Assembly: GCA_025354405.1 (NCBI GenBank)
Contig: JANXMY010000123.1
Location: forward strand, 1 to 50,295
DNA from: Armatimonadota bacterium
GTDB lineage: Bacteria; Armatimonadota; Armatimonadia; Armatimonadales; Capsulimonadaceae
DNA: 50,295 bases
Direction of reading: 5' to 3'
In this document: positions 5,647-49,735 of the stretch, one piece after another
Layout of the letters: every line of letters starts with the position of its first letter
How positions within the stretch are numbered: the stretch's first letter is position 1
Program-made: the position numbers and the translations under genes
The notes under the pieces: generated by a model
Seen by the model: only the letters and a program-made list of their open reading frames with translations
Told to the model about the DNA's origin: nothing
The model's database searches: none

Positions 5647-6416
5647 TGAGAGCTTATCGAGAAAATCTGGCGCCCGACGAAGAGGCGAAGTATTTAGAGA
5701 TGCGGGCCGCCGACGCCGAGTCGCCGCGGCAGTTCGTCAACTTTGCGTTTTACAAATTAGACCCATTGTTCCGGCGGGAACTCTCTGAAGCGGAGAGGGC
5801 CGAAGCGGCGCGCGAAGTTTCCGCCCTGGTGACGGAGGCCAAAAGCAAATTTTTGGTGTATCCGTTCAGCACATTGGGCATCCGCCCAGAGTGCGACTTC
5901 TTGCTCTGGCGCATCTCCTATCGCCTGGAAGACTTTGAAGAGATGACGACGGCACTGCTGCGAACGCGCATGGGTCAGTATCTTTCCACGCCGTATTCGT
6001 ATCTGGCGATGACAAAGACCAGTATTTATGTCGACGAGCACGACTTCGAGGATCGCGAATCGGGCCGCAAGCAGATCGTCATCGGCGGCGGCAAGTATTT
6101 ATTTGTGTATCCATTCATCAAGACACGGGCCTGGTACCGCTTGAGCGATGATGAGCGGCGCCGCGCGATGCGCGAGCATATCACGGTCGGGCATGACTAT
6201 CCGAGTATCAAGCTGAACACAACCTATTCGTTCGGCCTGGATGACCAGGAGTTTGTAGTCGCGTTTGAAAGCGACTATCCGCAGGACTTTCTGGACCTGG
6301 TCCATAAACTGCGCGAAAGTGAAGCGAGTGCTTACACGGAGCGCGACGTTCCCGTTTTCACCTGCCTGCGGCAGGATATTGAGACAATTACCAAGCATGT
6401 CGGCGGCGTGAAGTAA
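5646..6416 (+). CDS. hemQ: Coproheme decarboxylase HemQ / chlorite dismutase-like haem protein
   Basis: A 256-residue member of the chlorite dismutase superfamily, clade of HemQ/ChdC, which oxidatively decarboxylates coproheme III to haem b in the coproporphyrin-dependent pathway. Characteristic segments are VYPFIKTRAWYRLSDDERR near residues 150-170 (the YPF tyrosine is the family's catalytic residue) and MREHITVGHDYP, which supplies the proximal-histidine region. DVPVFTC closes the fold near residue 234. The frame is open upstream to 5583, but ATG 5646 fits the family's N terminus better. Its position between thrC and a sulfur carrier is not explained by haem synthesis, and other haem genes are not in the window. 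Confidence 0.85.
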   Translation: MRAYRENLAPDEEAKYLEMRAADAESPRQFVNFAFYKLDPLFRRELSEAERAEAAREVSALVTEAKSKFLVYPFSTLGIRPECDFLLWRISYRLEDFEEMTTALLRTRMGQYLSTPYSYLAMTKTSIYVDEHDFEDRESGRKQIVIGGGKYLFVYPFIKTRAWYRLSDDERRRAMREHITVGHDYPSIKLNTTYSFGLDDQEFVVAFESDYPQDFLDLVHKLRESEASAYTERDVPVFTCLRQDIETITKHVGGVK

Positions 6417-7056: not shown

Positions 7057-8808
7057 CTAAAGCGTAGTTATGACGCGCTGCCATGAAATGATATCGTAGT
7101 GGGAGCCGGTCGTCGGAAAAAAGGGAGGCGGAGTATCCGCCAGCCGGCTGTCATAATGGTAGATTTCATTGTAGCCGTTGATGATTGTTCCATTACTATT
7201 TGCAGTTGCAAACAAGCCGGAATCTTTCGTAATAACTCCACCAACGCAGATCATATTACCTTTGATGCCGCCGGTACCATAGTTTGGGTAATCGAATGTG
7301 GACGTGGCAAAGATGCTGCCGTCAAACTCAAGGTTTGCGGGGGCACTGGACGCAACTTGAACATGGTGGCTTAAGATGCCGAAAATACCTGCCTTCTGGT
7401 TGAAGGCAGTGTCTGCTGCCTGGGCCTTAGTCAGGTCACGGGCTGTGTTGTAGGTAATGGAGTCGATAAGCGTGACATCCTTGCTATTGGCGATATCTGT
7501 GGCTATCGTCATATGCGAAGGATTGATGATGTTACCACTTGCATCCGTGACGTTGTCCGCAAGCTTTCCGCTGAGCGCGGTGATATTCCCATCCGAATAG
7601 ACCATTCCATTGGGAACGCCGATCAGACTTTGAACGTGGTGAGTTACAACTCCTCCACTTACCGTCGGGAGGTCGATGGTCGTGCTGTTGCTCGCCATAT
7701 TAATTGTGACGGTCTGCGTAACGCCACCCTGTACGACCAGAATTTGCTGGTTGCCACTCCCATCCAATTGCAAGGTCATGGCATTGTCTCCATGAATGTA
7801 CAATCCCCCGGTGATGTGCCCATTCGATTGGTTGAACCCAGCGCTAGTGCTGATATTGATACCATTTGTCGTCGGGGCATTTCCATCCGGGGAATTGACA
7901 CCTGCGGGAGCAGGATCACCCAGAGCCGCATATTGCTGCTGATAACTCGTAGTCGGCAGAGGGATTGGAGGCGATTTTGGGATTTTGTTTCCACCTGCAT
8001 CCAAAATTGGGTTTCCACTGGCATCGGTTTGAAAGCCATATGTCATCGACGCCAGACCACCTACGGCAACACTTTTAAAGTCTGAAGCAGAGGTTGGCGC
8101 ACTCACGTTGCCAATGGTGTCTTTCCACCATTTGACGTCATCCGAGACTGAAAAAGCATCCGACCCTGTATACGTGAAAATCGGCGTTGGTGTCGGGTTT
8201 TGCCATAAAAACGTGCTCTGGCCGGTGTCACCATTATGGCCGTCGTTAAAGTGCACCGGGCCTTCAAAGTGATTGTTGAAATCCCAGAAGCCGCCGCCGT
8301 CGTTGACGGCAAAGTAGGCGTATTTGCCGAAACTCGATTGCTGGACGTACTCACGGACAATCTGGATCGCCCCACTTGGCATGGTCGCCTGGCTTTCGAT
8401 CAGGTAATGCTTTTGTACCGAGCCTGTATTCGTATTATCCACATTGATCGTGATCTTCAGTGTTGCGCCAGCCTGCGAAGCAATACCGAAGGGATTGGTT
8501 ATCGTTCCGTTCGTCCCATAGAAAGCGTTGTTGTTTGGGAAATTCAAGTTCGAGTAAATGGGTGGGGTGCTTTGTTGTGTCAGCCAAGTTTTTGCGAGGT
8601 CCAGGCCGGAGTCTGCCATATTGAACGCTTCCGTCGAATCCGTACGCTTTTGTGCCGAGGTGATTGCTGTGCCAACGAGATTCAGCAGGCTCGCTGTTGT
8701 AACGCTCATCAGAAACAGCAAGATCACGGTCGTGATCAGTGCCATGCCACGCTGACGTGATTTTTGGTGCCGGGTGCCCGCCGTGAGGAAAGTCTGGGTG
8801 TGTATCAT
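7057..8808 (-). CDS. PilX-like pilus tip / minor pilin assembly protein
   Basis: A 583-residue protein with a PilX-type N terminus: a short basic leader, then RGMALITTVILLFLMSVTTASLL as the membrane helix and an amphipathic stretch ending FNMADSGLDLAKTWL. The rest is a large, beta-rich, Asn/Gly/Thr-rich extracytoplasmic region without a domain I recognise. PilX proteins help start or bridge type IV pili. GGAGG sits immediately against an ATG at 8817, so the ATG three codons later (8808) has the better spacing and is used here. It overlaps or abuts the PilW-like gene upstream and is the last gene of its operon. Confidence 0.75.
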   Translation of the reverse strand: MIHTQTFLTAGTRHQKSRQRGMALITTVILLFLMSVTTASLLNLVGTAITSAQKRTDSTEAFNMADSGLDLAKTWLTQQSTPPIYSNLNFPNNNAFYGTNGTITNPFGIASQAGATLKITINVDNTNTGSVQKHYLIESQATMPSGAIQIVREYVQQSSFGKYAYFAVNDGGGFWDFNNHFEGPVHFNDGHNGDTGQSTFLWQNPTPTPIFTYTGSDAFSVSDDVKWWKDTIGNVSAPTSASDFKSVAVGGLASMTYGFQTDASGNPILDAGGNKIPKSPPIPLPTTSYQQQYAALGDPAPAGVNSPDGNAPTTNGINISTSAGFNQSNGHITGGLYIHGDNAMTLQLDGSGNQQILVVQGGVTQTVTINMASNSTTIDLPTVSGGVVTHHVQSLIGVPNGMVYSDGNITALSGKLADNVTDASGNIINPSHMTIATDIANSKDVTLIDSITYNTARDLTKAQAADTAFNQKAGIFGILSHHVQVASSAPANLEFDGSIFATSTFDYPNYGTGGIKGNMICVGGVITKDSGLFATANSNGTIINGYNEIYHYDSRLADTPPPFFPTTGSHYDIISWQRVITTL

Positions 8809-8813
8809 TACAA

Positions 8814-9650
8814 TCATCCTCCAAAATACAGTCGTTTGCCATTTGTACCGCCGGGAACAATGGGTGATGGGTTATGATCACGGAGATAAACGCACTCGCC
8901 AGTCAGCGCGGTGCTGCTCCCCGCGGAGGAGTCCGATGTGGCAGTCCCATGGATTGGGTCATACTGCCCGCTGATGATTTTGATCTCGGCTTCATTGACG
9001 ACGGGAGTGACACCATCGGCGAGGCGTGGAATGATAAACTGCACGGCGTCCGGAGTTGGTGCGATCGTCTTGATCACGGGGCCCGGTATGACAGCTTGGC
9101 CGTTCTCTGTGCCTGTGACCCAAAGGCATTTCCCGGTGTTTGGGTTTGGCGTGCCGTCTGCCCCCTCGGATTGCTGCCAATTTGCGCGGTAAAATGTGAC
9201 TACCGAGGCGGTAGTATCCGGTTTTGCCGCAAGGTCATAGGGACTGTTTGCCGCCGTGAGCGCTTTACTCACTCCGGTGCCTGACGTGTAAGTGATCGTG
9301 GATTTCCATGGGTTGGGAGAAGTAATGGTGATACCTGTCACAAGCGTGTTGCCTAGCGAATCGGTTGCATCATGGACGACATCATCGAGCAGCACAAAGC
9401 TATTCGCTTCACGCAGGTCGGTGCTGATGCGCTGGATTGCATTCGATGCATCCTGGGACGAGGTCATAGACGCAAGAACGCTTCCGCTGAGACCCAGCAT
9501 GAGATTGAATATCCCGATCACGCCCAGAAGCAGGAGCGATAGGAGGCTAACGCTGATCATCAGCTCCATCAACGTATACCCACGCCGGAAGCGTGAAGTT
9601 CGGGACTGTGTCTGGCTCAAAATATTTTTCGGACGAGATTTTGACGGCAT
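8814..9650 (-). CDS. PilW-like prepilin
   Basis: A 278-residue protein with a type IV prepilin leader and N-methylation site RRGYTLMELMISVSLLSLLLLG near residues 22-43; cleavage is expected after the glycine, and Glu+5 is present. The mature part resembles PilW/PulJ-like minor pilins (SSQDASNAIQRISTDLREANSF), followed by a variable beta-rich region. It would be processed by PilD peptidase and inserted into a pilus or pseudopilus. GAGGAAAA precedes the ATG. It lies 10 bp after the PilV-like gene and just before the PilX-like gene, the usual order of a minor pilin cluster. Confidence 0.82.
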   Translation of the reverse strand: MPSKSRPKNILSQTQSRTSRFRRGYTLMELMISVSLLSLLLLGVIGIFNLMLGLSGSVLASMTSSQDASNAIQRISTDLREANSFVLLDDVVHDATDSLGNTLVTGITITSPNPWKSTITYTSGTGVSKALTAANSPYDLAAKPDTTASVVTFYRANWQQSEGADGTPNPNTGKCLWVTGTENGQAVIPGPVIKTIAPTPDAVQFIIPRLADGVTPVVNEAEIKIISGQYDPIHGTATSDSSAGSSTALTGECVYLRDHNPSPIVPGGTNGKRLYFGG

Positions 9651-40879: not shown

Positions 40880-41593
40880 TCAAAGTGACCGCAGCCCATA
40901 CCCGATCCCGCGCCGGGTCTCCAGAAGAGCGGCGGTCTGGGGGGGCATCTTGGCGCGGAGGCGGCGGACATGGATATCTACCGTGCGCTCGCCGCCCTCA
41001 AAGTCCACGCCCCAGACCATGTCGAGCAGGCGGTCGCGGGCGAAGAACTTTCCCCGGTGCAGGGACAGAAAGCGCAGAAGATCGTATTCGCGCGGGGTGA
41101 GCGGTAGGAGGCGGCTGTCGGTGCCCCGGACGCAGCCCCCGGCAAGGTCCAGGGTCAGGTCGGCGATCTGCAGCGTTTCACCGCCCAAAACATGACGCTT
41201 GCGGAAGGCCAGTCCCGAGAGGCGTGCCAGCAGCTCTGAGGGAGAGTAGGGCGGCAGCAGGAAGTCATCCGTGTAAGCTGGCCAATCGGGCTGAGTGAGA
41301 TGTTTGGGTGTGAGCAGGGCCAATCGGGTTGGTGGGGGGGCATCCTCGCCCCAGGCGTGCTGGATCAGGCGCGACGCATGTCGCAGAGGAAGGCAGTCGG
41401 GAGCGGCCGACAGGTCTGCCAGCAGGACGTCCGGCGGACGGCCGCCAAAGGCGCGGCAAAGGCTTTCGACCGCCGCCGCCCCGCTATCCAGAGAGCTCGG
41501 CGTGACAGCATATCCCGCTTCGCGCAGGGCATAAATTAGCCCTTCGGCTGAGCCAGTCCTATCGTGTGGTGCAAGGACGAGAACATTGAGCAT
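40880..41593 (-). CDS. OmpR/PhoB-type response regulator with atypical receiver
   Basis: A 237-residue transcription regulator. The N-terminal 120 residues have receiver-like spacing and an aspartate at the expected position (DVLLADLSAAPD), but the acidic pair at the start of the fold is replaced (VLVLAPHDRTG), so phosphorylation is doubtful. The C-terminal winged helix is typical: LTPREYDLLRFLSLHRGKFF, LLDMVWGVD, ERTVDIHVRRLRAKM and TRRGIGYGL. It is encoded 93 bp downstream of nirD on the same strand. OmpR/PhoB proteins bind paired 7-bp direct repeats with an 11-bp period, the layout found upstream of nirB and of the nasA operon, so it is a candidate regulator of these genes (inference). Confidence 0.85.
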   Translation of the reverse strand: MLNVLVLAPHDRTGSAEGLIYALREAGYAVTPSSLDSGAAAVESLCRAFGGRPPDVLLADLSAAPDCLPLRHASRLIQHAWGEDAPPPTRLALLTPKHLTQPDWPAYTDDFLLPPYSPSELLARLSGLAFRKRHVLGGETLQIADLTLDLAGGCVRGTDSRLLPLTPREYDLLRFLSLHRGKFFARDRLLDMVWGVDFEGGERTVDIHVRRLRAKMPPQTAALLETRRGIGYGLRSL

Positions 41594-41686: not shown

Positions 41687-42028
41687 CTATGAGGCGAAAC
41701 GGGCGGCTTCTCCCAAGAAAGTCAGCTCAATATCGCCAGACTCCGTTAAATGCACCGGGTAAGTCTGCAGGGCGCATGACCCCATCTGCGGCTCGCCGGT
41801 CTTCAGATCGAACTTCCAGGCATGAAACGGACAGGTCACCTGCGTACCCCCGACCAGCCCATCCGCCAGTGGGCCTCGCCGATGCGGGCACTCGGCCTGA
41901 GTGGCGTAGATGCCCTGCCGGGTATGGAAAATTGCGATCTCAGTGTCGCCGATCCGAAAGTTCCGCCCTTCCCCGAGCGGTATCTGGGTTACGGAGCCGA
42001 GAGCGTATTTGGTTTTTTCTGATATCAT
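41687..42028 (-). CDS. nirD: Nitrite reductase small subunit, Rieske-type
   Basis: A 113-residue Rieske [2Fe-2S] protein. The two iron-ligand boxes are CPHRRGPL (residues 47-54) and CPFHAWKFD (about 66-74), spaced as in NirD-type small subunits. With NirB it forms the NADH-dependent assimilatory nitrite reductase. A mobile-like repeat (copy B) separates it from nirB by about 220 bp, so co-transcription is likely but not certain. No clear ribosome binding site precedes the ATG. Confidence 0.88.
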   Translation of the reverse strand: MISEKTKYALGSVTQIPLGEGRNFRIGDTEIAIFHTRQGIYATQAECPHRRGPLADGLVGGTQVTCPFHAWKFDLKTGEPQMGSCALQTYPVHLTESGDIELTFLGEAARFAS

Positions 42029-42228: not shown

Positions 42229-42266
42229 TCTAAGCCTGCATCACCGGTCTAAGCCTGCATCACCGG
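42229..42266. repeat. 19-bp perfect tandem duplication at the nirB stop
   Basis: TCTAAGCCTGCATCACCGG occurs at 42229-42247 and 42248-42266. The nirB stop (42249-42251 on the minus strand) is in the second unit, so the last six codons are repeated downstream out of use. Confidence 0.95.
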
Positions 42267-44696
42267 CAGGGTCGAGACGAACTGATTGGCGGTCGCTGGA
42301 GTGTCGGCCTCCAGCCACGGGTCGACATAGGCATCGACGCTGGCCTGGATAGCGGCATCCAGCCGGGCGGCAATTCCTTCGCTATCCTCCACGACAACCG
42401 CCCGTATCTTGTCCATGCCGATCCGCTCCACGAAGCTAGAGGTCCGCTCCAGATATTTGGCAGTTTCGATGTAATACTGCATAAAGCGGCCCATGATTTG
42501 CAGAACCGCCTCATGCGAGTCGACGATGCATAAAATGTCGCCCTTACGGATGTGTGCTCCAGCGGCCCCGCCGACATAAATTTCCCAGTTGCCGCCCTCG
42601 ACCGCCACCGCGCCCAGGTCTTTCACCATCGCCTCGGAGCAGTTCCGTGGGCATCCCGCCGTCGCCAGCTTCAGCTTGCCGGGGCTTTCAATGCCCTGGA
42701 ACCGCTTCTCAATCTTGATTCCCAGGCCCGTCGAGTCCCCGACGCCGTAGCGGCAGAAGTCCGTGCCGACACAGGTTTTGCAGGTCCGAAAAGACTTCGC
42801 ATAGCCATGTCCCGAGGGCATCCCTAAATCTTTCCAGACTTTCGGCAGGTTTTCTTTCGTGATACCCAGCAGGTCGATCCGCTGGCCGCCCGTGAACTTG
42901 ACCATCGGCACATTGTATTTCTTAGCGACCTGCCCGATCTTGATCAGCTCATCGGCGGTGGTCACGCCGCCGAAGATGCGCGGAATGACCGAGAACGTTT
43001 TATCCTTCTGGATATTGGCGTGAACGCGGTCATTGATGTAACGGGCATCGCGCTCATCTTCGTATTCCGCACCCCACAGGGACTTGAGCAGCGATGCCAG
43101 CCCCATCTTCGACCCGGCATCTTCAACACCGTGTGCGAGCGTATCGAAAACGCTGGACACCGACTTCAGACCCCGAGCCATAATCACTTCAACCAGCTCG
43201 GACTTAACAAGTGCGACGCCGGGAACGTAAAAGTGGATGCTTGGGTCTTCCTCGATCTGACCCTCGGCAGCCCATTCGACGACCTCCGACACCAGCTTTT
43301 TGCAGGAGCCGCAGCCCATGCCTGCACGAGTGGCTTCCATCACCATCTTCAGCGAACGTTTGCCGCCTTCGACGCACTTGCGGATCTGGCCTTTGCTGAC
43401 TCCGTTGCAGTTGCAGATCTGGGCCGTGTCGGGCATCTCCAGCATTGTCGCTTCCACGGAGGGTGCCCCGATATCAAAGAGCAGCGACAGCCGCTCCTCC
43501 GGCAGGGGCGTGCCACGGTCGAAGGCCTGCATCAGATAGGCGACTTTATTCAAATCGCCCAGCATCATTGCGCCGATGAGTATTCCGTCTCGGATAATCA
43601 GCTTCTTATATGTCCCGCGCTTCGGCTCGGAGAAGATAACCACTTCATCTCGGTCGTCGGAGGCTTCGGTGACGCCCATCGACGCCAGCTCGACTCCCAT
43701 CACTTTCAGCTTGGTGGCGATCTTGGAGCCGTGGTAGGCGGCGTTCTCGTTACTGCCCGTGATATGGTCGGCCAGGACCTGTCCCTGCTCCCAGAGCGGC
43801 GCGACCAGGCCATAAACACGGCCACGGTGCTGGGCACACTCGCCGACGACGTAGATATCCGGGTCGTCTACCGAGCGCATCTGATTATCGGTGACGATGG
43901 CGCGCTCCACGGTCAGGCCGCAGTCCCGCGCCAGCTCGTTGTTGGGCGTAATGCCTGCGGAGATGATGACCATGTCACAGTCGAGGATCGTGCCGTCTTT
44001 GAACTGCAGCCCGGTCACACTGTCTTCGCCGAGAACCGCCGCCGTGGCTTTTTCGAGATGGACATGGACGCCCATCTTTTCCATGATTGAGGTGAGAATT
44101 TTGCCGCCCTGGGCATCGAGCTGATTATTCATCAGCCAGGGAGCGAGGTGGATGACATGGACTTCGACTCCGTAATTCAGCAGGCCGCGGGCCGCTTCCA
44201 ATCCCAGCAGGCCGCCGCCGATGACCGCCGCTTTGCGGCATTTGTTGGCGTAACCTGCGATCTTATGGCAGTCGTCGATGGTGCGGAACACGAAGACGCC
44301 GTGCTTATCTTCGCCCTGCGGACCTTTCAGACCCTCCATCGGGGGGACGAATGGACGACTGCCGGTCGCAATCAAAAGCTTGTCGTAGGAAGTGACTTGA
44401 CCGTCGTCGCTGCAAATCTCTTTGCGTGCTCGGTCAATTTGCGTAACGCGGGCTGGGGCATGGAGTGTGACGGTATTTTCCGTGTACCATTCGAGGGGAT
44501 TCAGGAAGATGTCGGCGGGGTCCTGGGTGCCGTTCAATACATTGGAGAGAAGAATGCGGTTGTAGTTGCCATACGGCTCGTCGCCGAACATGGTGATATC
44601 GAACTGCTGACCGCCGCCGCGTGCCAGTATCTCTTCGACGGTCCGGGCACCGGCCATGCCGTTACCAATCACGACCAATTTTTGCTTGTCACTCAT
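42249..44696 (-). CDS. nirB: Assimilatory nitrite reductase large subunit
   Basis: A siroheme enzyme of about 815 residues reducing nitrite to ammonium with NAD(P)H. The N-terminal FAD/NAD-binding part has VVIGNGMAGARTVEEIL and AAVIGGGLLGLEAARGL. One BFD-like [2Fe-2S] domain follows (CNCNGVSKGQIRKC ... GCGSCKK, near residues 410-450). The C-terminal sulfite/nitrite reductase part contains the siroheme/4Fe-4S cysteines, CKTCVGTDFC and ATAGCPRNCSEA. The start is taken at the second of two adjacent ATGs (44696; 44699 is the other). The ribosome binding site AAAGG is buried in an 11-bp leader stem, suggesting regulated translation. Confidence 0.95.
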   Translation of the reverse strand: MSDKQKLVVIGNGMAGARTVEEILARGGGQQFDITMFGDEPYGNYNRILLSNVLNGTQDPADIFLNPLEWYTENTVTLHAPARVTQIDRARKEICSDDGQVTSYDKLLIATGSRPFVPPMEGLKGPQGEDKHGVFVFRTIDDCHKIAGYANKCRKAAVIGGGLLGLEAARGLLNYGVEVHVIHLAPWLMNNQLDAQGGKILTSIMEKMGVHVHLEKATAAVLGEDSVTGLQFKDGTILDCDMVIISAGITPNNELARDCGLTVERAIVTDNQMRSVDDPDIYVVGECAQHRGRVYGLVAPLWEQGQVLADHITGSNENAAYHGSKIATKLKVMGVELASMGVTEASDDRDEVVIFSEPKRGTYKKLIIRDGILIGAMMLGDLNKVAYLMQAFDRGTPLPEERLSLLFDIGAPSVEATMLEMPDTAQICNCNGVSKGQIRKCVEGGKRSLKMVMEATRAGMGCGSCKKLVSEVVEWAAEGQIEEDPSIHFYVPGVALVKSELVEVIMARGLKSVSSVFDTLAHGVEDAGSKMGLASLLKSLWGAEYEDERDARYINDRVHANIQKDKTFSVIPRIFGGVTTADELIKIGQVAKKYNVPMVKFTGGQRIDLLGITKENLPKVWKDLGMPSGHGYAKSFRTCKTCVGTDFCRYGVGDSTGLGIKIEKRFQGIESPGKLKLATAGCPRNCSEAMVKDLGAVAVEGGNWEIYVGGAAGAHIRKGDILCIVDSHEAVLQIMGRFMQYYIETAKYLERTSSFVERIGMDKIRAVVVEDSEGIAARLDAAIQASVDAYVDPWLEADTPATANQFVSTLPVMQA

Positions 44697-44699
44697 CAT

Positions 44700-44817
44700 T
44701 GCTGCCTTTCGGAGACACAAAATTGCCCGTGTGGGCGAAAAGTATCAAGAGAAAGGCAGCATTGCCGGGGAAAAGCTTCAGTGCGGAGGGTAAAGCAAGA
44801 GCCGCGTCATTGCGGCT
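44700..44817 (-). promoter_or_regulatory. nirB leader RNA: two A..G.. hexaloop hairpins and an RBS-hiding stem
   Basis: Read on the minus strand from a predicted start near 44826. Hairpin 1 is AGCCGC-AATGAC-GCGGCT (44817-44800). After 33 nt, hairpin 2 is GGC-AATGCT-GCC (44766-44755) within the 15-base sequence CCCGGCAATGCTGCC. Both six-base loops have A at 1 and G at 4, the rule for targets of ANTAR antiterminators such as NasR. TGCTGCCTTTC (44761-44751) can instead pair with GAAAGGCAGCA (44710-44700), which contains the nirB ribosome binding site and abuts its ATG. Hairpin 2 and this stem exclude one another. Stem 2 has only three to four pairs, so folding needs testing. Confidence 0.6.
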
Positions 44818-44832
44818 AAAGCTTATGAAGAG

Positions 44833-44865
44833 AGTATACGATACAAATGTTTCCATCATGTTTCG
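44833..44865 (-). promoter_or_regulatory. nirB promoter with paired-repeat operator
   Basis: On the minus strand, CGAAACATGATGGAAACAT (44865-44847) contains two GAAACAT repeats 11 bp apart, followed after 8 bp by the -10 box TATACT (44838-44833). The repeats occupy the -35 region. An identical layout occurs at 49735-49703. Confidence 0.65.
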
Positions 44866-44937: not shown

Positions 44938-45285
44938 CTATACCTCAACCAAACCAATATCCAAAACTACTGTGCCCGAAACGCCCTCGGGAGCGGCCAG
45001 ATAAGTTTCCAGCTTCGTACCGGACATCAGATCCTCAACCACGGCGAGGGCGACGTGGACATCGCTGCGGGCTCCGATGGGGAAGTATCGCATGGGTGAG
45101 CCGTCCCGCATTAGCACAACATAGATCATCTCGGCGGACGAATTTCCCGCCCGAAAGTAGACGAACTGTGCTCTCTTGCCGACCGGGATGACATAGGTCA
45201 GCTCGGCGGAAAGCGAATGTGGGCTGTTCAGCCCATGGCCTGTGAAGGGATAAACGCCCTGTAAAAGTTGCGGTTTGGAATACAT
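44938..45285 (-). CDS. Small unrecognised nitrate-cluster protein, paralogue A
   Basis: A 115-residue, beta-rich soluble protein without signal peptide or membrane helix. I do not recognise its family. It is clearly paralogous to the product of 49153-49575: both have LQGVYPF(T/A)G(H/R)G near the N terminus, YFRAGN in the middle, RYFP(I/V)G, and a C terminus with AAP.G(V/L)(S/T)GTVV(L/V)DIG. It is the last gene of the nitrate operon, 35 bp after the permease, with AAGGAG before the ATG. Two copies flanking nitrate reductase and permease suggest a role in nitrate assimilation, perhaps assembly, binding or regulation. This is inference. Confidence 0.75.
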   Translation of the reverse strand: MYSKPQLLQGVYPFTGHGLNSPHSLSAELTYVIPVGKRAQFVYFRAGNSSAEMIYVVLMRDGSPMRYFPIGARSDVHVALAVVEDLMSGTKLETYLAAPEGVSGTVVLDIGLVEV

Positions 45286-47068: not shown

Positions 47069-49156
47069 TTACGCTCGTTCGATGCGCACGGCGCAGACCT
47101 TGAACTCCGGCATCTTCGAAGTCGGGTCCAGGGCCGGGTTCGTGAGATTGTTGGCGCATGCTTCACCGCCCCAATGGAACGGTGCGAAAATGGTGTCCTG
47201 ACGGATCGTCGCAGTCAGGCGTGCCTTCATTCGCGCTTCCCCGCGCCGGGTCGTCAGCACGATGGGATCGTTGTCGGCGATCCCAAAGCGCTGGGCCAAA
47301 GCCGGATGTATCTCCGCGAAGGGTTCCGGGGCGATTTTCAGCAGGGCGTCAACACGCCGGGTCTGCGTCCCCGACTGATACTGCGCCATCACCCGCCCCG
47401 TCGTCAGGTAGAGTGGGTAATCGTCATCGGGCTCCTCCGCTGCCGTGCGATGATGCACGGCATGAAATTTGGCCCGTCCATCCTCGTGTGCAAAGTTATC
47501 GTGGAAGAGCCGCGGAGTCCCCGGGTGATCTTCCGACGGGCAGGGCCAGAAGACGCCGTCCTCCGCTGCGATGCGTTCGTAGGTAATGCCCGAGTAATCG
47601 GCGGCCCCACCAGCGCTGGCGCGGCGCAGCTCCTCAAATATCTCAGCTGGTTCCGCCGTCGGGAAATACTTGCCCGCACCCAGCCGCTCCGCCAGGGCGG
47701 TGACGATCATGGCATCGGTCCTAACCTCACTAGGATGGGGTTTTGCGGCATTGCGCCGGAGAACCCGGCCTTCCAGATTCGTCATCGTGCCGTCCTCCTC
47801 CGCCCACTGCGCGATTGGCAGGACCACATCGGCCATCTTTGCCGTTTCCGAGAGGAAGATGTCGGAGACGCACAGAAAGTCCAGTGCTCGCAGGCGCTCC
47901 TGAACGTGCAAAGCCCGGGGGGCGGAGACGGCGATGTTGGAGGCCATCACCAGCAATGCCCGGACACCGCCCCTCTGCCCCAGGGATTCCAGCAGCTCAT
48001 ATGCCGAGCGTCCCACCCCCGGCAGAGTGCTTTCATCGACGCCCCACACCCCGGCGATATAGGCGCGGTGGGCGGGGTTATCGATCTTGCGGTAACCAGG
48101 AAGCTGATCGGCCTTCTGCCCGTGTTCGCGTCCGCCCTGCCCGTTGCCCTGCCCCGTGATGCAGCCGTAGCCGCAGTGGGGCTTGCCGGCTTTGCCGATC
48201 GCCAGCATCAGATTGATGAATGCCAGCGTGTTATCCGTGCCTTTGGACTGCTGACCGGCTCCGCGTGCCGTCAGCGCCATTGCTGTGCCTGCCTCGCCCA
48301 GCAGGTGGGCCGCTTTGATGATCTGACTGGATGGGACTCCGGTGATACGCTCTACCCGGTCGGGCCAGAAGCTAGCAATAACGCGCCGGACACCTTCCCA
48401 CCCGGTGGTTCGTGATGCGATAAACTCATGATCCAGCAGGCCGTCGGCGGCGGCGACGTGCAGCAGACCGTTTGCCAGAGCTAAATCTGTTCCCGGCGAA
48501 AGCTGGAGATGCAGGGTCGCCAACTCCGCCGTGGCAGTTCGGCGTGGGTCGGCGACGATCAACGCCCCTCCGTTCTCGCGCTGCCGCTCGAAATACTGCA
48601 TAATCGGCGGCATGGTCTCGGCAGGGTTACCGCCGATGAGTAATATCGCCTCGGCCCCGGGAATATCTTCCAGCGGAAATGGCAGGCCGCGATCAATCCC
48701 AAACGCCTTCAGGCTCGCTGCCGCTTCCGAGGCCATGCAAAATCGGCCATTGTAGTCGATATGCGGGGTCCGCAGGGCAACGCGGGCGAACTTGCCCAGC
48801 CAGTAAGCTTTTTCGTTGGTCAGGCCGCCCCCACCGAAAATACCGACTGAGTCGCTTCCGTAAGCGGTCTGCGCGGCTAAGATCGCCGCCGTGACCCGGT
48901 CCAGCGCTTCGTCCCAGGTGGCAGGGCGCAGGGGACTGCCTTTCGAGTCGCGCACCAGCGGCGTCAGCAGACGTTCCGGGTGTGAGAGGAGGTCCGCCGC
49001 CGTCCAGCCCTTTTGACAGAGGCCGCCTTTGTTGGTCGGAAAGTCGGGGCGTGCCTGTACGGACAGCAGACCATTGGCCTCTTTGGCCAAATTCATGCCG
49101 CATTGCAGGGCACAATAAGGGCAGTGGGTGGATGTCATGGCTGCAGTTGGCTTCAT
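47069..49156 (-). CDS. nasA: Assimilatory nitrate reductase catalytic subunit
   Basis: A 695-residue cytoplasmic molybdopterin oxidoreductase reducing nitrate to nitrite. The N-terminal [4Fe-4S] motif is HCPYCALQCGMNL followed by GLCQKGW (residues 11-50). Bis-MGD-binding segments follow, including GGGGLTNEKAYWLGKFAR, NPAETMPP, CGYGCITGQGNGQGGREHG and the C-terminal YLTTGRVMAQYQSGTQTRR. It lacks the extra C-terminal [2Fe-2S] domain of enterobacterial NasA and is closer in size to ferredoxin-linked NarB forms; the electron donor is not encoded next to it. Its ATG overlaps the stop of the upstream small gene (ATGA). mobA, needed for its cofactor, starts divergently nearby. Confidence 0.93.
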   Translation of the reverse strand: MKPTAAMTSTHCPYCALQCGMNLAKEANGLLSVQARPDFPTNKGGLCQKGWTAADLLSHPERLLTPLVRDSKGSPLRPATWDEALDRVTAAILAAQTAYGSDSVGIFGGGGLTNEKAYWLGKFARVALRTPHIDYNGRFCMASEAAASLKAFGIDRGLPFPLEDIPGAEAILLIGGNPAETMPPIMQYFERQRENGGALIVADPRRTATAELATLHLQLSPGTDLALANGLLHVAAADGLLDHEFIASRTTGWEGVRRVIASFWPDRVERITGVPSSQIIKAAHLLGEAGTAMALTARGAGQQSKGTDNTLAFINLMLAIGKAGKPHCGYGCITGQGNGQGGREHGQKADQLPGYRKIDNPAHRAYIAGVWGVDESTLPGVGRSAYELLESLGQRGGVRALLVMASNIAVSAPRALHVQERLRALDFLCVSDIFLSETAKMADVVLPIAQWAEEDGTMTNLEGRVLRRNAAKPHPSEVRTDAMIVTALAERLGAGKYFPTAEPAEIFEELRRASAGGAADYSGITYERIAAEDGVFWPCPSEDHPGTPRLFHDNFAHEDGRAKFHAVHHRTAAEEPDDDYPLYLTTGRVMAQYQSGTQTRRVDALLKIAPEPFAEIHPALAQRFGIADNDPIVLTTRRGEARMKARLTATIRQDTIFAPFHWGGEACANNLTNPALDPTSKMPEFKVCAVRIERA

Positions 49157-49575
49157 AGTCGCTCTTCCAGGATTCCAATATCCACGACGACGGTTCCAGT
49201 CAGGCCGCGCGGAGCCGCCAGGCAGACCTCGATCCGCGACCCGGCTGGGTAGAACTCAACAATGGAAAGATGCACGTGGAAATCCGCTTTGGGGCCAACG
49301 GGGAAATAACGCACGGGGTGACCATTCAGCGACAGAGTTAGGTAAAGCAGGTCGTCCGAAAGGTTTCCGGCACGGAAGTAGATCACTCCAGCGGTTGTGC
49401 CTGCCGGGACTTCATAGCAAAGGGCGTCGTTGAGGGGGGCCAGGTCGAAAAAACCGCGGCCTGCAAACGGGTATACTCCCTGCAGGTAATGCGTCGTCGC
49501 CTCCCCCGTCCGTATCAGCCGCTGCTGCCGCGTCTCAGTTGTAATCGTGTTTGTTTCGGAATCTTGCTGGCTCAT
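49153..49575 (-). CDS. Small unrecognised nitrate-cluster protein, paralogue B
   Basis: A 140-residue protein without recognised family, signal peptide or membrane helix. After a polar N-terminal extension of about 30 residues it is homologous to paralogue A along its full length (YLQGVYPFAGRGFF, VIYFRAGNLSDD, RYFPVGPKADFHVHLSIVE, CLAAPRGLTGTVVVDIGILEE). It is the first gene of the nitrate operon, and its stop overlaps the nasA ATG, so the two are translationally coupled. ATG 49575 follows an in-frame TTG; its ribosome binding site is weak, but a short upstream open frame ends just before it. A role close to nitrate reductase is inferred from coupling alone. Confidence 0.75.
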   Translation of the reverse strand: MSQQDSETNTITTETRQQRLIRTGEATTHYLQGVYPFAGRGFFDLAPLNDALCYEVPAGTTAGVIYFRAGNLSDDLLYLTLSLNGHPVRYFPVGPKADFHVHLSIVEFYPAGSRIEVCLAAPRGLTGTVVVDIGILEERL

Positions 49576-49578
49576 CAA

Positions 49579-49626: not shown

Positions 49627-49686
49627 GGCAGCATTGCCGGGAGGAGCCACAGGGCGGTGTGGGGAAAGGGGACTGCATCGGTGCAG
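49627..49686 (-). promoter_or_regulatory. nasA-operon leader RNA with two A..G.. hexaloop hairpins
   Basis: On the minus strand, hairpin 1 is CTGC-ACCGAT-GCAG (49686-49673), starting about 10 nt after the predicted start at 49696. After 34 nt comes the same 15-base CCCGGCAATGCTGCC (49641-49627) as in the nirB leader, which can form GGC-AATGCT-GCC (49638-49627). Both loops have A at 1 and G at 4. No stem hiding the ribosome site is evident here; a downstream hairpin without a T tract lies at about 49616-49597. Confidence 0.55.
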
Positions 49687-49702: not shown

Positions 49703-49735
49703 AGAATACCTGCCGATTGTTTCCACAATGTTTCG
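49703..49735 (-). promoter_or_regulatory. nasA-operon promoter with paired-repeat operator
   Basis: On the minus strand, CGAAACATTGTGGAAACAA (49735-49717) carries two GAAACA repeats 11 bp apart, followed after 8 bp by TATTCT (49708-49703). Sequence and spacing match the nirB promoter at 44865-44833. The repeats also lie 15 bp upstream of the divergent mobA ATG. Confidence 0.65.

Follow-up and report, generated by a model that had tools for sequence, protein, structure and literature searches.

Hexaloop leaders of nitrate-assimilation operons in Armatimonadota: a candidate ANTAR-target RNA regulon with putative control at translation initiation

The window, that is the whole stretch of 50,295 nt that was analysed, comes from the genome (3.6 Mb, 96% complete) of a Capsulimonas-like soil bacterium of the Armatimonadota. 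On its minus strand lies the nirB operon with nirB itself, coding for the large subunit of assimilatory nitrite reductase (42249-44696; NCBIfam TIGR02374, E 8e-260), a gene for a nirD-like Rieske protein (41687-42028; NCBIfam TIGR02378, E 2e-19, slightly under the cut-off) and, as last gene, one for a GlnR-like atypical OmpR-family regulator (40880-41593), the receiver domain of which is not recognised by Pfam. The nasA operon (47069-49575, minus strand) encodes a 141-aa protein of unknown family followed by nasA. This small protein (49153-49578) has a paralogue of 115 aa in the window (44938-45285, also minus strand); neither matches Pfam or NCBIfam, and their conservation extends over nitrate clusters of the Armatimonadota and one acidobacterial MAG.

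Upstream of nirB a GlnR-box-like direct repeat, GAAAC-n6-GAAAC (44849-44864, minus strand), replaces the -35 and is located 10 nt before a -10 element TATACT (44833-44838, minus strand), which places the predicted transcription start at about 44826; no sigma-70 -35 was found upstream of this -10. The predicted transcript bears three hairpins on the minus strand, each with A at position 1 and G at position 4 of its hexaloop: a 6-bp hairpin H1 (AGCCGC-AAUGAC-GCGGCU, 44800-44817), supported by sequence, fold and covariation in relatives, a middle mini-hairpin Hm with a stem of 2 bp only (GC-ACUGAA-GC, 44775-44784) and a 3-bp hairpin H2 (GGC-AAUGCU-GCC, 44755-44766). The linker between H1 and H2 is 33 nt, whereas Hm stands 8 nt before H2. 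The 3′ half of H2 together with the following UUUC constitutes an anti-SD arm (UGCUGCCUUUC, 44751-44761, minus strand) that is perfectly complementary to the SD arm GAAAGGCAGCA (44700-44710, minus strand; SD GAAAGG), and the resulting 11-bp helix links H2 to the ribosome site of nirB.

H1, H2 and the 11-bp stem had been described in the original prediction, which was made from sequence alone, and all three held: the hairpins can be read directly, and the stem is borne out by sequence and folding. Its account with two hexaloops was incomplete, as a third is present at 44784-44775, and the stem had been said to reach the nirB ATG. The start codon is probably 44696, which gives an SD spacing of 8 nt; this position is preferred because a relative of the same genus retains the second ATG only. 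With respect to membership among ANTAR-target RNAs, the window's leader contains at least two hairpins of at least 3 bp with hexanucleotide loops (6 bp in H1 and 3 bp in H2), and A1 and G4 are present in both loops (AAUGAC and AAUGCU). The C:G loop-closing pair, a criterion from NasR SELEX (PMC7496416), is met in every aligned H1 and H2. At the gathering score, Rfam returned no match in the window and tRNAs alone in six related loci; families obtained at relaxed E-values were rejected as chance microRNA-like matches. We also discarded a basal stem that would close H1 (in the window, AAGCUUUAG/CUGAAGCUU), as relatives do not keep it.

Folding predictions place the leader among strongly structured RNAs (z = -4.6 against dinucleotide shuffles; none of 200 shuffles was as stable). 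The 11-bp SD helix dominates the predicted fold and appears in both the minimum-energy and the centroid structure, and the duplex between H2 and the ribosome site is stronger than about 99.9% of shuffles. Without protein, the leader is predicted to have an SD that is practically never open (P open ~0) and practically no H2 (P ~0), while the predicted P of H1 is 0.998. Positions 44761-44755 are used by both H2 and the SD helix, which therefore exclude each other; the form with H2 is less stable than the SD helix by ~8-12 kcal/mol.

The whole arrangement is duplicated in the window before the nasA operon (49734-49575, minus strand). The second leader consists of a GAAAC-n6-GAAAC repeat (49719-49734) of the same spacing, which also recurs in homologous leaders, H1 (CUGC-ACCGAU-GCAG, 49673-49686), a middle hairpin read from the sequence with an octaloop (CCAC-ACCGCCCU-GUGG, 49647-49662) and H2 (GGC-AAUGCU-GCC, 49627-49638), all on the minus strand. 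As a whole element it scores E 4.6e-10 in a covariance model (see below), with the reservation that it belonged to the training set of this model. A possible 4-codon upstream reading frame (M-K-R-A-stop) in this leader ends at the start of the 141-aa gene; its start codon is missing in the related genome G005.

Nine further genomes of the phylum have leaders of this type, located before nirB, nasA or narK. Direct reading of five nirB leaders from the family showed H1 and H2 with A1, G4 and C:G closing pairs in all of them, together with GAAAC-type repeats and the TATACT -10. Their loops are AAUGAC, AUUGAC, AGUGCU, AGUGCU and AGCGUU for H1, and AAUGCU, AAUGCU, AAUGUC, AAUGUC and AGCGUU for H2. 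The element is found at the nasA operon in six genomes including the host (the copy in G003 is without H1) and at narK in four. In all leaders compared, the loops have G at position 4 and a purine, A or G, at position 1, and the remaining positions (2, 3, 5 and 6) vary. In the nas leaders of G004 (L178 ~5954-6120) and G009 (L179 ~1907-2060), G is found at position 1 of both hexaloops; this matched exchange of A to G might reflect the specificity of the ANTAR protein, although we regard this as no more than a possibility.

A covariance model trained on ten nirB and nas leaders only, without any narK leader (R1), was run against the class (19 genomes). Besides its training sites it matched a single new one, a narK leader of G003 (contig C404, E 0.002) that has GAAAC repeats of its own; those 13 genomes that have neither nirB nor nasA yielded no match better than E 0.05. 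After addition of the G003 narK site, the model (R2) matched the narK leader of G002 (E 2e-4) and that of G045, a genome from a distant family (E 0.028). The nirB leaders of G046 and G079 and the narK leader of G047, from other families, were added by reading upstream of these genes. Weak model matches elsewhere in the phylum (G018, G236, G261, G146 and others) were dismissed as chance, being located within coding sequence or without a nitrate gene, and a simple IUPAC double-hexaloop pattern was dropped as evidence since its matches in the phylum were about as numerous as those of a reversed control. The leader motif is absent from the orthologous nirB of an acidobacterial MAG, a Chloroflexi MAG, Curvibacter and an alphaproteobacterial MAG; because these four outside orthologues lack it, there is no evidence of spread beyond the Armatimonadota. 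Two side observations concern the narK leaders of G045 (L173 ~8600-8850) and G047 (L174 ~2400-2660): in both, an extra GGC-R..G..-GCC-like hexaloop directly precedes narK, and H2 pairs with the SD of a short upstream reading frame.

The alignment provides covariation for H1: 14 cells are changed on both sides of a pair compared with a mean of 5.7 in shuffles, and none of 500 shuffles reached this number. The covariation score of H1 is 0.352, against 0.053-0.234 in slid versions, and 91% of cells are paired over the whole aligned structure. The three pairs of H2 are invariant in all leaders, so that no covariation evidence can be drawn from H2. A third hexaloop in the GC-R..G..-GC or a 3-bp form is present 7-10 nt before H2 in nine of the 16 leaders, with a chance probability of ~2e-17 for all leaders and ~3e-9 for a non-redundant ten.

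Pairing between H2 and the SD was assessed by scoring the H2 loop, its 3′ stem and 10 further nt against the last 32 nt of each leader, in comparison to shuffles. We obtained p values of 0.0006 for the window's nirB leader, 0.009 and 0.002 for those of G005 and G002b, and 0.012 and 0.001 for the nas leaders of G004 and G009; the others were weaker. Combined by Fisher's method, the duplex gives p 6e-8 for all 11 leaders and 4e-7 for seven non-orthologous ones, and a control with re-assigned partners gives p 0.027. Furthermore, G046 nirB has 10 bp of this pairing (p 0.0007), and the narK leaders of G047 and G045 reach p 0.005 and p 0.02, with start codons that were picked after the pairing had been seen. 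In several leaders the SD helix is re-formed with different sequences, examples being UGCUGCCUUUC/GAAAGGCAGCA, CGUUGCCCC/GGGGaGCAACG, GAUGUCGC/GCGACAUC and GACGCCUUUC/GAAAGGCGUU. The second of these belongs to a diverged second nirB copy on the G002 chromosome (position 4963147), which is preceded by a leader of this type of its own; independent anti-SD pairing is clearest there (CGUUGC-CCC/GGGGaGCAACG). In the same shuffle test a direct H2-SD helix was unsupported in the other nirB leader of G002 (G002a, p 0.66), in G003 nirB (p 0.81) and in the nasA leader of the window (p 0.5), and in the G003 narK leader the SD sits in a separate hairpin. The control of the ribosome site that had been predicted is supported by the return of the SD helix, in altered sequence, among other leaders, with the reservation that some homologous leaders lack it.

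One ANTAR gene was detected in the host genome (Pfam PF03861, 67.7 bits), on contig C53. A PF03861 search found none in the window, as had been claimed; the sole match is on this other contig. The protein is a REC-ANTAR response regulator of 208 aa, and the next gene encodes a BBP2 porin. Its best PDB matches are 1s8n, a putative antiterminator, and 6wsh, a response regulator, which we take to be Rv1626 and EutV, respectively. In G002, G003 and G009 an ammonium transporter follows the porin (order ANTAR-BBP2-Amt). We refer to host-like REC-ANTAR proteins as type 2, and to a second kind found almost throughout the rest of the class as type 1, which adjoins a GAF-type kinase in several loci. Type 1 was not found in the host (G000) or in G009; an assembly gap is not excluded. 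Of the 19 genomes in the class, the six with nitrate genes all carry type 2, which also occurs in three genomes without nirB. Every motif-bearing genome has an ANTAR gene, and most relatives carry further ANTAR paralogues. G019 and G021, which have nirB and no ANTAR genes, yielded no meaningful model match at their nitrate loci. The ANTAR protein differs from EutV at positions that contact RNA (M172 to Q, R175 to Q and R177 to P); these exchanges and the further paralogues count against the reading proposed below.

The leader of the ANTAR gene itself has an intrinsic terminator, the 5′ arm of which contains GAC-A..G..-GUC, in eight genomes (G000, G005, G002, G003, G004, G009, G018 and G017, with the loops AUUGGU, AGUGGU, AGUGUU, AGUGCU, ACUGCU, AUUGUG, AUCGUG and AUUGUG in this order). 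In the host it is located on contig C53 (L001 2390-2160, minus strand; GAC-AUUGGU-GUC) behind a TTGACA/TATACT promoter. G000 and G005 have an additional upstream hexaloop, GCGC-AGAGCU-GCGU or GCGC-AAUGCU-GCGC. These terminators were read by eye; a simple scan, whose loop limit excluded the long arm, listed the upstream hairpin only. The region 5′ of the host's terminator is strongly structured and without an Rfam match. The layout is that of a classical antiterminator and supports type 2 as a hexaloop reader, an assignment that remains an inference, and possibly points to two output modes in one genome.

Taken together, we consider an ANTAR-target RNA regulon for nitrate assimilation, with the nitrate operons controlled at translation initiation, to be the best reading of these data. 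For the nirB leader in particular we favour, with moderate confidence, an ANTAR-target RNA that gates translation initiation and activates when bound; there are no binding or expression data, and protein binding, the identity of the ANTAR protein, the signal, the direction of activation and the action of GlnR are all inferred. In this view, the loop and the 3′ half of H2 would pair with the nirB ribosome site over 11 bp and keep it closed in the absence of active ANTAR protein. Nitrogen or nitrate status would activate a REC-ANTAR regulator, for which the protein found in the host is the likeliest candidate, and this regulator would bind the R1/G4 hexaloops of H1, Hm and H2 during their emergence. 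By holding H2 as a hairpin it would occupy the anti-SD strand at the time the SD is transcribed, and nirB would be translated. The same regulator would probably control the nasA operon via the second leader, and its own gene would be controlled by its product via the classical hexaloop/terminator antiterminator. Transcription would be set by a GlnR-like activator at the GAAAC repeats.

The switch would have to be kinetic, with the protein holding H2 during transcription, because the closed form is favoured by 8-12 kcal/mol. A reservation applies to the claim that binding of H2 would free the site: the two structures exclude each other, yet when H2 alone is imposed in silico the window's SD still pairs with the linker GCUUUUC (P open 0.005). 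With Hm, H2 and the spacer occupied, P open rises to 0.27 in the window, 0.50 in G005 nirB and 0.40 in G004 nas. It is possible, by inference, that Hm and H2 are the functional pair and H1 an extra site, because the Hm-H2 spacing is near that of eut RNAs, where hairpins are 5-12 nt apart and longer linkers are harmful (PMC3369931, PMC8934654), and the H1-H2 distance of 33-36 nt is beyond the reported range of 2-25 nt for ANTAR hairpin linkers (PMC8164766).

Other explanations have to be weighed against translation activation. The hexaloops could serve transcription attenuation or antitermination of the Klebsiella nasF or Enterococcus eut type, with the SD pairing being secondary. This is the commonest ANTAR mode (PMC3369931), and its layout is present here in the ANTAR gene's own leader, with a hexaloop in the 5′ arm of the terminator. 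However, no U-run follows the long nirB helix, which extends to the start codon, so that the antiterminator criterion of an H2 overlapping an intrinsic terminator is not met in the nirB leader. A terminator-like match was obtained only for H1, whose T-tract is weak, and this match does not exceed chance; H1 of the other leaders is not followed by U-runs. We consider this explanation improbable. We rate as similarly unlikely that the bound protein represses translation in the mycobacterial style by blocking ribosomes near their site, although the translational ANTAR control described there was reported to be repressive (PMC8164766, with reference to its ref. 28). The bound hairpins of the reported cases contain the SD or adjoin it, whereas in the nirB leader 44 nt separate H2 from the SD downstream: H2 ends at 44755 and the SD arm starts at 44710, so that the criterion of a motif containing or overlapping the ribosome site is not met. 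In addition, formation of H2 excludes the helix that closes the SD.

The SD helix could also be constitutive, respond to temperature or ribosome kinetics, or be bound by another RNA-binding protein, with the hexaloops being coincidental. SD hairpins are common, and no binding has been shown. Against coincidence, the purine at position 1, G4 and the C:G closing pair are kept while the other loop bases and the H1 pairs change, the third hexaloop is spaced as in known ANTAR RNAs, and the two nirB-bearing genomes without ANTAR genes lack the motif too; this alternative, likewise, appears doubtful to us. A chance resemblance within a structured leader can be practically ruled out unless the alignments are wrong. 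Single hexaloops are indeed frequent, and the double-hexaloop pattern matches ~40% of the genomes of the phylum at a rate like that of the reversed control, but the recurrence at three nitrate operons across several families, the blind narK matches of the model and the duplex statistics speak against chance. Translation activation remains the best-supported reading, though unproven, because H2 excludes the SD helix and no terminator is conserved in the nirB and nas leaders. The original prediction had named as refuting outcomes a genome without an ANTAR gene, hairpins without covariation and freely varying A and G loop positions; none of the three occurred, and its ANTAR-target reading is supported by the ANTAR gene in the genome, the covariation of H1 and the restricted positions 1 and 4.

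With regard to transcription, the GAAAC-n6-GAAAC repeat matches the GlnR box form gTnAc-n6-GaAAc, and in actinomycetes nirB and nasA are under GlnR control (PMC10704036). The best PDB matches of the regulator encoded at 40880-41593 are 8hig, 8hih and 8hml, which we take to be GlnR structures, and a homologue is present in eight of the nitrate-gene clusters examined. This gene may point to a GlnR system outside the actinomycetes.

The leaders share several traits with the RNAs of eut (EutV, Enterococcus) and nasF (NasR, Klebsiella), namely hexaloop hairpins with A1/G4 and C:G closing pairs (PMC3369931, PMC8934654, PMC7496416), a second hairpin that overlaps an alternative inhibitory structure, an association with nitrogen-assimilation genes and a REC-ANTAR protein as in EutV. 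In contrast to these, the inhibitory structure in nirB is an SD-sequestering helix and not a terminator, there are three hexaloops instead of two, H1 and H2 are 33-36 nt apart, position 1 may be G, and the phylum is new: the Armatimonadota are not mentioned in the two ANTAR RNA surveys searched, and we found no relevant paper on Armatimonadota and ANTAR in the mainly open-access literature searched. As in the NasS-NasT system of proteobacteria (PMC3795266, PMC6759348), nitrate assimilation would be under an ANTAR response regulator, but no NasS-like gene was recognised in the neighbourhood of the ANTAR gene, which a porin and Amt adjoin instead. Actinobacterial ANTAR RNAs that overlap the RBS also act at translation initiation (PMC8164766 and a mycobacterial study cited there); in these the bound motif covers the RBS and represses, whereas here the motif is upstream and its formation would free the RBS. 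The logic proposed here is that of the riboptoregulator with NmPAL (PAS-ANTAR-LOV; PMC11381354), in which binding of an aptamer hairpin in a cis-repressing strand unblocks the SD and raises translation. That device is synthetic and driven by light, whereas the Armatimonadota leader is natural and conserved across families. Translational control of this form, which had been called unusual, is therefore less unprecedented than claimed, given the reported repression (PMC8164766) and the engineered activation (PMC11381354).

ANTAR proteins have been described mainly as antiterminators, the reported translational control is repression, and activation by unmasking of a ribosome site has so far been only engineered, in 2024 (PMC11381354), in the literature searched. 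A bolder reading, which we can neither favour nor dismiss, is that an ANTAR protein self-induced by antitermination binds triple-hexaloop leaders of the nitrate-assimilation operons, blocks the anti-SD helix and runs the regulon by both modes, transcription antitermination and translation activation. If the interpretation is true, the Armatimonadota leaders would bring ANTAR RNAs into a phylum that has been little studied, and would offer defined leaders for studying the rules of recognition, such as the choice of A or G at position 1, the contribution of the third hexaloop and the spacing of the hairpins. They would represent a conserved natural version of this control, which would couple one hexaloop code to two output platforms in one genome.
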